NCBI GenBank assembly: GCA_025354405.1
Contig: JANXMY010000190.1
Coordinates: 1-64,000, forward strand
Reading direction: 5' to 3'
DNA: 64,000 nucleotides
Origin: Armatimonadota bacterium
Lineage (GTDB): Bacteria > Armatimonadota > Armatimonadia > Armatimonadales > Capsulimonadaceae
The notes below the pieces were generated by a model. That model did no database searches. It saw nothing but the letters and a program-made list of their open reading frames with translations, and was not told the DNA's origin. Each line of letters starts with the position of its first letter. Position 1 is the stretch's first letter. Made by a program: the position numbers and the translations under genes. Below are positions 17,178 to 55,572 of the stretch, piece after piece.

Positions 17178-19136
17178 ATGCACCAGACAGAAAACCAGCT
17201 CCGTCCCTTTCCCAAAGAGCTGCCCCAAACAAATTTCTTTCTTGACGCTATAGTTAACACTGTGGATGCACTGGTTGTTGTAATTGACCGAAGTGGCCAC
17301 ATCGTTCTCTTTAATCATGCCTGTGAGGTAGCGACGGGTTATAAATTTGACCAGGTTCAAGACCAGCCATTTTGGAAACTCTTTATCATCCCCGAAGAAC
17401 AGGATAGCTTTGAGGCGTATTTCAAGTTCGATGGTGGACCTCGCGTTCCCAACAAGCGCGAGAATGTTTGGCTCACCAAAAGTGGCTGCCAGGAAATGAT
17501 CGCCTGGTCTAATACGGTGCTGCACGATGATCAGGACCGAATGACGTTCGTCGTTGCCACCGGCCTTATCATCACCGAGCGAAAGCATGCGGAAGAGGCG
17601 TTGCAGGCGGCAGAGCATAACTACCGAAGTATGTTTGAGAATGCTCTTGACGGTATTTTCCAGACGACACGGGCGGGGCATTATCTGCGTGCCAACTCGG
17701 CTCTTGCTCGTATCTACGGCTATGAAACACCCGATGAGCTGATCGAAACTCTGCACGATATCAAGCAGCAGCTCTATGTGGACCCGCGCCGGCGGGCCGA
17801 GTTTGTCCGCTTGATGCGCATGCATGGATGTGTGACCGGCTTTGAGGCGCAGATCTACCGTCGAGATGGCAAGATCATCTGGATCACTGAAGATGCCCGT
17901 GCCGTTTACGATGCGGCTGATACTCTGCAATATTACGAGGGCCATGTCCAGGATATTACCCACCGGAAATCTCTGGAAGCAGAGAAAGAAAACCTTCTGG
18001 CCGAAGCCCTAGAGCGTGCCGATCATGATCCATTAACTGGACTGCTTAACCACCGAGCATTTCACAAAAGATACCAGGAAGAGACCGCGCGCGCATTGCG
18101 TGAGGGCACCCCTTTAGCAGTTGCAGTGATGGATCTTGACAACTTCAAGTTCTTCAACGATGCCTACGGTCATGCCGTCGGCGACGATGTGCTGCGCCGG
18201 GTCGCAGAAACACTGCTGAACGGCTGCCGGCCCTATGATACGCTGGCCCGTTTCGGTGGGGACGAGTTTGCATTGCTCATGCCAAACACGACACTCGGTG
18301 AAGCCACCGCCCTGACAACTCGCCTGCGAAAGAAACTTGCTTCTACCGGATACCGACCGTTGAATCTCGAGAGCCCTATTCCGCTGACATTATCCGCCGG
18401 TCTCGCCGTCTTTCCTGAGGATGGAGAAGAGAAACAGATTGTCCTGGAAGCCGCGGATGTCCGTTTGATGCGGACGAAGACCGGCGGAAGCGATGACGAC
18501 TCCATTGAAAGTCTGCGCGAGCTTCTCCTGCATTCGCATCAGGGGTTTCTAATGCTCGATGCCCTGGTGACGGCTGTAGACAATAAAGATCGTTACACAC
18601 GTCGCCACTCCGAAGATGTGATGCGCTACGCCATTCAGATCGCAAGCGATTTGAACCTTGACAAACACGCGCAGCACACCCTGCAGGTGGCAGCACTCCT
18701 GCACGATGTTGGTAAAATCGGTGTCCCAGACCGTATTCTGCGTAAGCCAGGACTTCTTACTGACGAAGAAATAGATGCGATCCGTCAGCATCCGATGATG
18801 GGAGCCGTCATTGTCGGAGCCGTTCCAGGGTTTGAAGAAACACTTGAGGCAATCCGTCACCATCATGAGCGATGGGATGGTAAAGGCTATCCCCTCGGCC
18901 TAGCCGGATGCGAAGTGCCGCTGCCCGCGCGAATCATGGCGGTGGCAGATGCGTACAGTGCCATGACGATGGACCGGCCCTACCGACAGGGAAAGCTGCC
19001 GGAAGATGCGCTTCGGATCCTATTGCTGGGGTCCGGCAGTCAGTGGGACCCGGATTGTGTGGCTGCATTCCAGCAAAGCTTCATCCGTCTGAATATCGAT
19101 TTGGACCGGGACAAAGCCGCGCACACTGTTGATTAG
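17178..19136 (+). CDS. PAS-PAS-GGDEF-HD-GYP cyclic-di-GMP signalling protein
   Basis: 652 residues without membrane segments. Two PAS sensor domains (about 20-130 and 140-260) precede a diguanylate cyclase domain with the intact GGDEF motif at 360-364 and an inhibitory I-site RPYD at 351-354. A short linker leads to an HD-GYP phosphodiesterase with HD at 509-510 and GYP at 570-572 (HHHERWDGKGYP). Both catalytic centres look intact, so the protein could make and break c-di-GMP according to its PAS signals. The last 117 bases overlap the convergent pabBC gene; only the non-conserved tails of both proteins lie in the shared stretch. Confidence 0.93.
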   Translation: MHQTENQLRPFPKELPQTNFFLDAIVNTVDALVVVIDRSGHIVLFNHACEVATGYKFDQVQDQPFWKLFIIPEEQDSFEAYFKFDGGPRVPNKRENVWLTKSGCQEMIAWSNTVLHDDQDRMTFVVATGLIITERKHAEEALQAAEHNYRSMFENALDGIFQTTRAGHYLRANSALARIYGYETPDELIETLHDIKQQLYVDPRRRAEFVRLMRMHGCVTGFEAQIYRRDGKIIWITEDARAVYDAADTLQYYEGHVQDITHRKSLEAEKENLLAEALERADHDPLTGLLNHRAFHKRYQEETARALREGTPLAVAVMDLDNFKFFNDAYGHAVGDDVLRRVAETLLNGCRPYDTLARFGGDEFALLMPNTTLGEATALTTRLRKKLASTGYRPLNLESPIPLTLSAGLAVFPEDGEEKQIVLEAADVRLMRTKTGGSDDDSIESLRELLLHSHQGFLMLDALVTAVDNKDRYTRRHSEDVMRYAIQIASDLNLDKHAQHTLQVAALLHDVGKIGVPDRILRKPGLLTDEEIDAIRQHPMMGAVIVGAVPGFEETLEAIRHHHERWDGKGYPLGLAGCEVPLPARIMAVADAYSAMTMDRPYRQGKLPEDALRILLLGSGSQWDPDCVAAFQQSFIRLNIDLDRDKAAHTVD

Positions 19137-52246: not shown

Positions 52247-52732
52247 TCATAAATTTTTCCCAACAGTCCGTGATTTTCTGAGGCGGACCGTCGTATTGAC
52301 GCCATCAGACAACACCTCAACGGAATCGACCAGAGCCGTTATCAGGCAGAAACCCCGGCCATGAGTCGCGAATTCATCGGCTTCCGGCAGGCGCGCGAGA
52401 ACGTCGAGGTCGGGGTGAAACCCGTTGCCTTGATTGCTGATATCGACGCGCAGTTCGTCGCTGCTCAGGCGTGAACAGGCGACGGTGAGAAGAGGATCAA
52501 GAACATCCTTCTGTCCATAATTGATCGCGTTATTACAGGCCTCGCCAACCGCCAGCAAAAGGGCGTCGGCGTCATCTACGCCCCAGAGCTGACGGCGCGT
52601 GAAGTCCGCGACCTGACGCCGCACCAAGCCCACCTGTTCTGGCATGGCGGGGACTTGAAGAAAGAGGTGGTCGGAGTCAGCGAATTCGCTGTGATCATCG
52701 GAATGGATTGGCTGAGGAGAATAGCTGTACAT
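52247..52732 (-). CDS. RsbW-type anti-sigma factor/serine-threonine kinase
   Basis: 161 residues of the HATPase_c_2 family. The N box AVGEACNNAINYG, G1 box VDISNQGNGFHPD and G2 box HGRGFCLI are complete, so ATP binding is expected. In partner-switching systems such kinases hold a sigma factor and phosphorylate an STAS anti-sigma antagonist; neither partner gene is adjacent. An AGGA lies 11 bases before ATG 52732. The gene lies 115 bases downstream of a five-GAF protein on the same strand, a likely sensory input. Confidence 0.85.
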   Translation of the reverse strand: MYSYSPQPIHSDDHSEFADSDHLFLQVPAMPEQVGLVRRQVADFTRRQLWGVDDADALLLAVGEACNNAINYGQKDVLDPLLTVACSRLSSDELRVDISNQGNGFHPDLDVLARLPEADEFATHGRGFCLITALVDSVEVLSDGVNTTVRLRKSRTVGKNL

Positions 52733-52847
52733 CTTTTACTAGTTCCTAAAAATAGACGATAGGTGATCGAAATGTAAGTGAGTGTCAAAACCAGAATAAC
52801 GTGTTAAACATAATCGGCATTTTCCAGGTAATTAAACAGTAACAGAG

Positions 52848-55421
52848 TCAATGCAGACGAGCAGACAGCAGATTGGCAGCCGTTTCTGCAAACTGCCGCT
52901 CGTGTCCATCGAATCCATGGCTCTGGGGTGCACGCACAAAAATGAAAACAGCACGCTGAGTTTCTCCTGCGAGCACGGGCACGACCAGCGCCGGAGCGGC
53001 CGGGTCGGAGGGGAGCTGGCTCAATTGATGCGAACTCTCCACTTGTGTGGCCAGATCCCGAAGCAGCGTGTCTATCGCCTCCGCTTGTTCTAAATCCAAT
53101 GCCTCCACGCGGCGATACAGGTGTGTTTCAGATGATGGAGCAAACCACCGCAGCACACCGGCATCGGCACGTATCGCGCTACCCACCAAGCGTAGGACAT
53201 CAGGGAGAAGTTCCGGAGCAGCCTGTGCAAGGCGTGAAGCAAGTGCGCTCAGGGCTTCGAGGTCGTCTAGGCGGCGGCTTGCCTGTTCGACCAGCAGTGC
53301 ATTTTGCAGCCCGATACTCGCCTGGCTGGCAAATGTCAGCATCAGCCGCATCTCATCCGGTGTAAAGCGGCGAGGCTCCCGTGTGTAGACTTCCAGCACA
53401 CCGAGCATATCTTTTCCCAGCTTCAGAGGGACCCCTAAATAGCCTGTGATCCGCTCCCGAATCGCAAAGGATGGCAGAACAAAGCGCAGGTCCTGAGAAA
53501 AATCTTCCACGGTCAGAGAGCGGCAGCGACGCGCAACAAACGCCGTGGGAGTCTCCGGGCCCCGTCCGCTTTCGGAGGCAGCAACCGTCGGCAGTGCCGA
53601 AAGTGCCGATTTAAAATTTGACGCTGCACGGGGAACGAGGTTCCCCTGAGCATCGAGTGCCAGCAGAATACTCCGGTCGGCTCCGGTCATTTCCAGTGCC
53701 AGGTCTGCGATTGTCTGCGCCGTCTTGCGGCCATCCAGCGAAGACCCCAGGGCACGGGCGATGCGCCGAACCCCTTTTCGAATCTCCTCCGTCTTATGCC
53801 GCGCCTCTTCATACATCTGGGCGTTCGCGATCGCCGCCCCGACTTGATTGGCAATGGTGTACAGCAGCTCCATTTCGCCGACCGTAAAGAGGCGGCGGCG
53901 GCTGCTCATGGCATGGAGAACGCCGATCACATGATCGCCCGATTGAAGCGGCACGCTGACTAGTGATGTTACGCCTTCACTGTGGATCGGGCAGGAACGA
54001 TTTCGATGGTCTGCAGAGACGTCCTGAACTGCGGTCGGGGTTTCAAATTCCAGCACCCACCCGGCAATACCTTCGCCCATGCGCGGCTTCATACTCTGGG
54101 CCGTTTCGCTGCGAATATTGCGGGAGACTTTGATTTCCAGGCAGTCGTCATTGGGATTATAGAGGAAGAGGGCGAACTTGTCCACATGCAAAAGTGCCAG
54201 GACGCTGTCAGCGACGAAATGGATCACACGGTTAAGGCTAAGGGTCGCTCCAATGGACTGCGACAGTTCATAGAGTGCCGCCGCTTCCTGCGCCCGCCTC
54301 GTGGCATCCTCGTAGAGCCAGGCATTTTCGAGGGCGACTGCCGCCTGACTGGCCACTGCCGAAAGAAGCGATGCGTCCGCTGCACTGTAAGCACCCGCCT
54401 GCCGGGAGCCGACCACGAGAAGACCCTCCGCGACTGACCGGGCCACCATCGGTGCCAGCAGCAGAGAACGCATTCCTGGCAACGGCGTGTCATCCTGGGA
54501 ATCTTCCTGGACATCGTTCAAAAGAAGCGGCTGACCCGCCGCCAGGGTCCGTGCAGCCAGCCCCGTTCCTTCGCCGGACATCTGCCGATCGTGGTCTTCC
54601 TCGCCGAGGCCGCGATCTGCTCCAATATAAAAACGGGTGCGCTCATCGTTTAGCAGGTAGACAGCCCCCGCTGTCATCTCCATGCTGTCAGAGACGGTCG
54701 CGAGAACGCTGCCGAGGACTTCCTGCACGTTCAGGGAGGAGGAAGTTGTCTGGGCAGCTCGGAAGAGGATATCGCGCTCCTGCTGCTTCTGGGTCGCCAG
54801 TTTTTTAAGTTCGTCGGTATAAAGAGCCTGCGCGGCGAGATTGGCCAGAGTTTGCAGGCAAAGGAGATCCGCCCCACTGAAGGCACCGTCATCCAGCCGG
54901 TTAAGAACGCTGAGTGCTCCGGCGGGCCGTCCGCCAAGAAAGACAGGGACGACCAGCGCAGAGCGCAATCCGATGGCAGCAATCGTGGGATCAGAAGGTT
55001 CAGCCGTTGTCGGCTCCGGGTGGTGGGAAAGATACAGCTCTCCGGTAAGGGCAGTATGTCCCGCGAGGGCATCTTCCACACGCACAGTCTGGCCGACGAT
55101 GTCTGCAGCGTCCAGCCCCGAAACGGCAGCGAAATCCAGCAGGGAGCGTGTGGGGTCGAGCAGACACACCGCAGCACTGCCGGCTTCGGTGAGTGCTCGG
55201 GCCTTTTCGGCGATCAGTGCCAGGGGCAGGCGCGGGTCGGTCTGCCGCGCAACGGCTCCAACCACCTCATGAAGTGCAGTCAGATGGCGGTCCAGCGTCA
55301 GGCCTCTGGGCAGCGGCACAAGCACTGCTGACAGCGTACCGGCAGAGGCTTCTGAGCCGGAGATATTTTCAGAATTTTGGGCGGTTTCGGAAACGATCGA
55401 GGGCAACAGTCTGTCCTTCAT
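52848..55421 (-). CDS. Multi-GAF sensor protein without recognisable output domain
   Basis: 857 residues, no membrane segment. Five GAF-type modules follow each other at about 60-215, 230-385, 400-555, 565-720 and 735-857; for example SVPLQSGDHVIGVLHAMSS and GVPLKLGKDMLGVLEVYT are typical GAF core strands. No kinase, GGDEF, PP2C or helix-turn-helix domain is present. GAF domains bind small molecules, nucleotides or haem. Because an RsbW-type kinase lies downstream, the protein may relay a signal by protein contact. It starts at ATG 55421 with GAGG upstream and is divergent from the porin-like gene. Confidence 0.85.
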   Translation of the reverse strand: MKDRLLPSIVSETAQNSENISGSEASAGTLSAVLVPLPRGLTLDRHLTALHEVVGAVARQTDPRLPLALIAEKARALTEAGSAAVCLLDPTRSLLDFAAVSGLDAADIVGQTVRVEDALAGHTALTGELYLSHHPEPTTAEPSDPTIAAIGLRSALVVPVFLGGRPAGALSVLNRLDDGAFSGADLLCLQTLANLAAQALYTDELKKLATQKQQERDILFRAAQTTSSSLNVQEVLGSVLATVSDSMEMTAGAVYLLNDERTRFYIGADRGLGEEDHDRQMSGEGTGLAARTLAAGQPLLLNDVQEDSQDDTPLPGMRSLLLAPMVARSVAEGLLVVGSRQAGAYSAADASLLSAVASQAAVALENAWLYEDATRRAQEAAALYELSQSIGATLSLNRVIHFVADSVLALLHVDKFALFLYNPNDDCLEIKVSRNIRSETAQSMKPRMGEGIAGWVLEFETPTAVQDVSADHRNRSCPIHSEGVTSLVSVPLQSGDHVIGVLHAMSSRRRLFTVGEMELLYTIANQVGAAIANAQMYEEARHKTEEIRKGVRRIARALGSSLDGRKTAQTIADLALEMTGADRSILLALDAQGNLVPRAASNFKSALSALPTVAASESGRGPETPTAFVARRCRSLTVEDFSQDLRFVLPSFAIRERITGYLGVPLKLGKDMLGVLEVYTREPRRFTPDEMRLMLTFASQASIGLQNALLVEQASRRLDDLEALSALASRLAQAAPELLPDVLRLVGSAIRADAGVLRWFAPSSETHLYRRVEALDLEQAEAIDTLLRDLATQVESSHQLSQLPSDPAAPALVVPVLAGETQRAVFIFVRAPQSHGFDGHERQFAETAANLLSARLH

Positions 55422-55471: not shown

Positions 55472-55500
55472 TTGCACGAATGTCGTCATTGTGTCATAAT
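55472..55500 (+). promoter_or_regulatory. Promoter of the porin-like gene
   Basis: TTGCAC (55472-55477), a 17-base spacer and CATAAT (55495-55500). Predicted start near 55507, leader about 66 bases. Confidence 0.75.
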
Positions 55501-55512
55501 CAGACCAGTCTG
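55501..55512 (+). promoter_or_regulatory. Candidate operator at the porin promoter start site
   Basis: The perfect 12-bp palindrome CAGAC-CA-GTCTG lies immediately after the -10 box, over the predicted transcription start. Its AGACC..GTCT core resembles operators of several TetR-family repressors; no such regulator gene is in the window. Confidence 0.4.
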
Positions 55513-55572
55513 TCAAGTCGTCTTTCGGGTTGGTGACGGAAGTCTCTCCCCGGGAACCCATAAAGTGCTTTT

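Follow-up and report, generated by a model that had tools for sequence, protein, structure and literature searches.

The multi-GAF and RsbW-like genes

The window, by which is meant the whole stretch of DNA that was analysed, comprises 64,000 nucleotides, positions 1-64000 of contig C102, in the 3.6-Mb draft genome of a member of the Capsulimonadaceae, Armatimonadota (JANXMY010000190.1, GCA_025354405.1). Two of its genes are the subject of this work. One encodes an 857-residue multi-GAF protein, P0001, and the other, 115 nt downstream on the same strand, a 161-residue protein with the fold of RsbW and SpoIIAB. A preliminary description of this DNA had placed an RsbW-type gene after the GAF gene on the same strand, and both open reading frames and their order were recovered here. 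The features of the locus are as follows:

55488..55516 (-), promoter-like site preceding the GAF gene, TTGACA-17-CACAAT, with a TG just ahead of its second hexamer (consensus match only)
52848..55421 (-), multi-GAF protein P0001, 857 aa (open reading frame and Pfam; AlphaFold2 mean pLDDT 84.7)
54810..55286 (-), GAF1, residues 46-204 (Pfam and AlphaFold2 model)
54315..54782 (-), GAF2, residues 214-369 (Pfam and AlphaFold2 model)
53811..54287 (-), GAF3, residues 379-537 (AlphaFold2 model; the most conserved of the P0001 modules)
53295..53786 (-), GAF4, residues 546-709 (Pfam and AlphaFold2 model)
52851..53276 (-), divergent fifth GAF-like module, residues 716-857 (AlphaFold2 topology; under the Pfam cut-off)
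52733..52847 (-), intergenic gap of 115 nt, alignable with the gap of the corresponding pair in genome G017
52247..52732 (-), RsbW/SpoIIAB-fold (HATPase_c_2) protein, 161 aa, Asn at the G1 Asp position (open reading frame, Pfam, alignment, AlphaFold2, Foldseek)
52526..52555 (-), N-box LAVGEACNNA, with Glu64 and Asn68 retained (alignment)
52412..52441 (-), G1 box ISNQGNGFHP, with Asn100 in place of the canonical Asp (Asn codon AAT at 52433-52435)
52349..52363 (-), G2 box HGRGF, with Gly125 and Gly127 retained (alignment)

No promoter- or terminator-like match occurs in the 115-nt gap. Together with the promoter-like site before the GAF gene, this would fit co-transcription of the two genes.

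Four stretches of P0001 match the Pfam families GAF, GAF_2, and GAF_3. The fifth GAF module that the preliminary description counted is recognized by its modeled topology only; taken alone, it scores 20.5 bits against GAF_2 (cut-off 28.6 bits), and it is not matched by a profile built from the first four modules of P0001 itself. In the AlphaFold2 model, residues ~736-856 adopt GAF topology with a block pLDDT of 70-91, and the five GAF-fold modules are linked by helices of ~45 residues. The earlier statement that P0001 has no effector domain holds, since neither Pfam nor the model reveals any domain beyond the GAF modules. A degenerate SpoIIE domain at the C-terminus was also considered, and is rejected because a local SpoIIE profile and Pfam give no match there and the modeled topology is that of a GAF module.

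The nucleotide-binding site of the RsbW-like protein

The 161-residue protein belongs to HATPase_c_2 (PF13581, E=1e-23) and has the GHKL (Bergerat) fold; its top Foldseek matches are RsbW and SpoIIAB, with E about 1e-10 to both. The preliminary description had credited it with intact ATP motifs. This does not hold for the G1 box. The N-box Glu64 and Asn68 and the G2 glycines are kept, but the G1 box reads SNQGNGF, so that alignment with SpoIIAB places Asn100 at the position of the adenine-contacting Asp. The scores against the NCBIfam equivalogs are far below their cut-offs, both for RsbW (50.6 bits, cut-off 145) and for SpoIIAB (40.1 bits, cut-off 135). We do not file the protein as an RsbW because it lacks two defining traits, namely the G1 Asp and a STAS or sigma factor gene as neighbor, although it may work like one.

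Precedents for the substitution come from other GHKL proteins, in which the G1 Asp makes contact with the amino group of adenine (PMC10017428). The histidine kinase VanS is a natural Asn variant whose affinity for ATP is only low millimolar, while in ThkA, also a natural variant, the Asn forms a hydrogen bond with adenine (PMC10017428). A preference for GTP has been reported for one histidine kinase with an Asp-to-Asn change (PMC10017428), and the D79N variant of Hsp90 is defective in nucleotide binding (PMC10148809). With a conserved Asn at this position, and VanS, ThkA, and Hsp90 as precedents, nucleotide binding by the RsbW-like protein is probably weak or atypical, and loss of kinase activity is possible. 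The effect of the Asn on ATP binding should not be read as fixed, since reverting the Asn of VanS to Asp yielded an unstable protein and did not raise its affinity for ATP (PMC10017428).

Conservation of the gene pair

Of 291 genomes examined from the phylum, 50 contain an ortholog of P0001 (E <= 1e-80). The RsbW-like gene follows the GAF gene on the same strand in six of these, G000 and G017 of family f1 and G012, G003, G011, and G008 of family f2. The six pairs thus span two families of the source organism's order, with kinase identities to the 161-residue protein from 79% down to about 33%, and none of them has a STAS gene beside it. Clustering of the neighboring genes identifies the RsbW-like gene as a gene family common to the loci of both f1 and f2. 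At least three further genomes of the order (G018, G013, and G009) carry the GAF gene without an adjacent RsbW-like gene, the downstream DNA being known, and the contigs of G016 and G010 stop shortly past the GAF gene. Nearly 40 orthologs in other families of the phylum have no RsbW-like neighbor. These proteins contain four GAF modules, and their neighbors depend on the lineage (thioredoxin reductase, FolD and LarE, or TetR). Conservation of the pair across Armatimonadota, raised as a check in the preliminary description, is therefore real within two families but does not extend to most GAF orthologs of the phylum. Since most orthologs, along with those of G018, G013, and G009, lack the RsbW-like partner, the GAF protein can evidently do without it.

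The presence of the fifth module goes with that of the kinase gene. At least 100 residues follow GAF4 in all six kinase-linked GAF proteins, P0001 included, compared with 3 of 41 unlinked ones, and G009 has neither the additional stretch nor the adjacent kinase. This co-occurrence suggests that the fifth, C-terminal module may be the point at which the two proteins meet.

A few related loci deserve mention. In G049, an in-frame stop splits the GAF ortholog into two open reading frames (L162:3230-5299). G012 encodes a second Asn-type copy of the RsbW-like protein (L166:7425-7997, on G012:C93) with no adjoining GAF gene and an unrelated C-terminus, which looks like a decaying duplicate. A search of wider genome contigs with the kinase returned four Verrucomicrobia loci only.

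Asparagine at the G1 position among RsbW-like proteins

For each of 138 distinct RsbW-like proteins, the amino acid at the G1 Asp position was recorded along with the domain that is encoded upstream or fused to it. Most of these proteins come from this phylum and four from Verrucomicrobia; they were collected by their similarity to Asn-type sequences, so that the sample is enriched for Asn. Asn is present in all 20 proteins whose gene comes immediately after a multi-GAF gene (6) or a GAFn-SpoIIE gene (14), compared with 3 of the 72 that follow or are fused to STAS. Single chains combining RsbW, GAF, and SpoIIE have Asp in six of six cases, and so GAF linkage as such does not require the Asn. 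Proteins with no recognized GAF, SpoIIE, or STAS gene within 400 nt are divided into 7 with Asn, 3 with Ser, and 29 with Asp. A Fisher test of GAF-linked against STAS-linked proteins gives 2e-17, a value that ignores relatedness. The order of a multi-GAF gene followed by an RsbW-like gene recurs elsewhere in the phylum as GAFx3-SpoIIE followed by an RsbW-like gene (families f32-f35, 14 cases).

None of the 20 GAF-linked proteins departs from the N-box Glu and Asn or from the G2 glycines, and every one of them has Asn, never another residue, at the G1 Asp position. Such uniformity suggests that Asn is selected and function retained, and speaks against decay. In the source organism's order, the glycines of the G1 box persist, with Cys at the second in one protein of six; in the SpoIIE-linked proteins they are mostly degraded. 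The 161-residue protein has Asn like every GAF-linked homolog sampled, and so its kinase activity cannot be assumed.

Trees built with the G1 region masked place the Asn proteins at several positions and do not unite those of f1 and f2. The trees thus suggest independent origins of the Asn, yet a single clade is not rejected either for the GAF-linked set (p-AU 0.44) or for all Asn-type proteins in a reduced set (p-AU 0.14). Descent from one event being possible, the 20 GAF-linked proteins do not amount to 20 independent observations.

A different residue is found at the same position in L171-L174 (G004-G007), where open reading frames of about 130-190 aa encode a small RsbW-like protein with Ser (DVDSAGEY). 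The neighborhood is common to the four genomes, all of them without the P0001-type GAF gene.

Partner-switching genes elsewhere in the genome

In the usual account of partner switching, an RsbW kinase, a STAS antagonist, a PP2C phosphatase, and a sigma factor act together. The genome was searched family by family for STAS, SpoIIE, and sigma factor genes, and 7 STAS and 12 SpoIIE matches were obtained in total. The earlier statement that no STAS, phosphatase, or sigma factor gene lies near the pair is correct for the 64-kb window, in which STAS, SpoIIE, and sigma-70 region 2 have no match. A canonical STAS-RsbW-sigma operon with its own RsbW lies outside the window on the same contig (C102:89991-91578), about 38 kb from the pair. 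The 161-residue protein is unlikely to be a partner of this operon, because the operon already has its own RsbW. The search for orphan genes that the preliminary description had proposed also yielded three STAS genes without a recognized RsbW or SpoIIE neighbor (C185:20.3 kb, C185:57.7 kb, and C58:63.3 kb).

The RsbW of the operon (C102:90785-91228, L071:6786-7229) has peculiarities of its own: its N-box (EACTHAV) has His where Asn is usual, and the glycine motif of its G1 box is degraded. Homologs such as L041, L042, L244, L265, and L266 are of this kind, and His, Thr, or Ser stands at the N-box Asn position in 15 of 54 proteins encoded after STAS in the phylum sample. Within the window, 17178-19136 (+) encodes a 652-residue protein in which PAS, GGDEF, and HD-type phosphodiesterase modules can be read by eye.

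Proposed direct control by the GAF array and its alternatives

The preliminary description proposed that a multi-GAF protein directly controls an RsbW-type kinase. The first half of this proposal is plausible, and direct control by the GAF array is the best reading of the locus, since the pair is kept in six genomes, the order GAFx3-SpoIIE followed by an RsbW-like gene recurs, and the STAS-sigma operon has its own RsbW. The second half, an ordinary RsbW kinase, is not supported in view of Asn100. We therefore favor, at a probability of roughly 50%, a two-gene sensor and switch module whose GAF array would bind a non-canonical, Asn-type RsbW-like protein directly and so regulate it. Also in favor of such a module are the Asn of all 20 GAF-linked proteins, the co-occurrence of the fifth module with the kinase gene, and the single chains of G202, G203, and Verrucomicrobia that unite RsbW, GAF, and SpoIIE.

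In such a module, P0001 would be soluble and probably a dimer, an array whose GAF modules sense ligands and have long signaling helices between them. It would have no enzymatic output of its own, the adjoining RsbW-fold protein serving as output instead. P0001 would bind this protein, probably through the fifth, C-terminal module, and ligand binding in the array would cause the RsbW-like protein to be held or released, making it able or unable to bind its own target. That target may be an orphan STAS protein or a sigma factor encoded elsewhere.

Three other explanations have to be weighed. The 161-residue protein could be a working RsbW-type serine kinase despite Asn100, with an orphan STAS protein as its substrate and one of the 12 SpoIIE proteins as its opponent, in which case the GAF protein would be a regulator or an unrelated neighbor. 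The two N-box residues, Glu and Asn, are intact together with the glycines of G2 and, in the source organism's order, those of G1; a natural Asn can still reach adenine as in ThkA (PMC10017428), and the three STAS genes without an RsbW neighbor could supply the substrate. However, none of the six pairs adjoins a STAS gene, the RsbW-like proteins that are linked to STAS nearly all keep the Asp, and the NCBIfam scores fall well short for RsbW and SpoIIAB alike. We regard this explanation as unlikely, and a role as a standard STAS kinase is likewise unlikely judging from the conserved Asn. Somewhat more doubtful is a role like that of RsbT, an RsbW-fold protein that activates the phosphatase RsbU (PMC12143880). 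The 161-residue protein would then activate a SpoIIE phosphatase in trans and be sequestered or released by the GAF protein. The 12 SpoIIE matches in the genome and the 14 Asn-type homologs of f32-f35 that directly follow GAFx3-SpoIIE genes speak for such a role, but no SpoIIE gene lies near the pair, the GAF-SpoIIE proteins have arrays that are not collinear orthologs of P0001, and the trees give no firm relationship between the f1 proteins and those linked to SpoIIE.

Finally, the two genes could be functionally unrelated neighbors that have stayed together because rearrangement is slow. The other, lineage-specific neighbors of most GAF orthologs and the three genomes of the order that lack an adjacent kinase would agree with this. 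Against it, the genes have remained adjacent and in the same orientation in two families whose kinases are about 40% identical, the loci of both families have the RsbW-like gene in common, the fifth module goes with the kinase, and the 115-nt gap is free of terminator-like matches. A chance association of this kind appears improbable.

A broader form of the favored module, direct control by the GAF array, would extend it to the Asn-type RsbW-like proteins at large as a STAS-independent branch of partner switching. Having given up the Asp, these proteins would have a low affinity for ATP, favor a different nucleotide, or work chiefly as protein switches, serving as the output subunits of multi-GAF sensors; in the source organism's order, the GAF array would exert control directly, with no phosphatase domain. 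This generalization is tentative, and we hold it to be rather doubtful as a whole.

Many times in the sample, the gene of an RsbW-fold protein adjoins that of a multi-GAF sensor in place of STAS, and the change at the adenine-reading residue is then always one and the same. The open-access literature searched yielded no description of GAF-linked RsbW-like proteins with a G1 Asn. As the Asn marks RsbW-like proteins beside GAF sensors and not those beside STAS, they probably represent an undescribed branch of partner-switching signaling. If the Asn alters nucleotide binding, a single residue would separate two branches of the RsbW family, and the GAF-linked branch could be recognized among genes whose present annotation is just "anti-sigma factor / serine kinase." Both the gene pair and the residue are clearly delimited and open to testing.

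Comparison with known systems

The RsbW and SpoIIAB serine kinases (PF13581; B. subtilis RsbW 6m36, Bacillus SpoIIAB 1til/1l0o) resemble the 161-residue protein in fold, size, N-box Glu and Asn, and G2 box. The latter differs in having Asn100 for the G1 Asp, a multi-GAF partner gene, and no adjoining STAS antagonist or sigma factor gene. RsbT offers a second likeness, since it too has the GHKL fold and is partnered by a sensor protein and not by STAS alone, and in relatives of the 161-residue protein the adjoining gene encodes a SpoIIE phosphatase. RsbT retains the G1 Asp. The partner of the 161-residue protein differs from that of RsbT in having GAF modules, with no phosphatase domain in the window.

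The same kinds of part are also found joined in single chains. An RsbW domain, four GAF modules, and a SpoIIE phosphatase form one protein in L165:4891-8076 (G202, 1062 residues) and L175:3836-7405 (G203, 1190 residues), and comparable RsbW-GAF-SpoIIE chains occur in Verrucomicrobia (L067-L070); the RsbU and RsbW domains of Rv1364c (3ke6) may also be compared. These chains have the canonical Asp and a phosphatase, whereas the pair described here is split and has no phosphatase.

P0001 itself compares with the four-GAF orthologs of other families (e.g., L127, L137), whose GAF1-GAF4 are collinear orthologs of GAF1-GAF4 of P0001. They differ in lacking both the fifth, C-terminal module and an adjoining RsbW-like gene. 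Derivation of the pair from GAF-SpoIIE and RsbW by loss of the phosphatase is not supported, because the modules of P0001 are collinear with this four-GAF family and not with the GAF-SpoIIE proteins. For the same reason, the combination of a multi-GAF protein with an Asn-type RsbW-like protein seems to have been assembled with at least two different GAF arrays.
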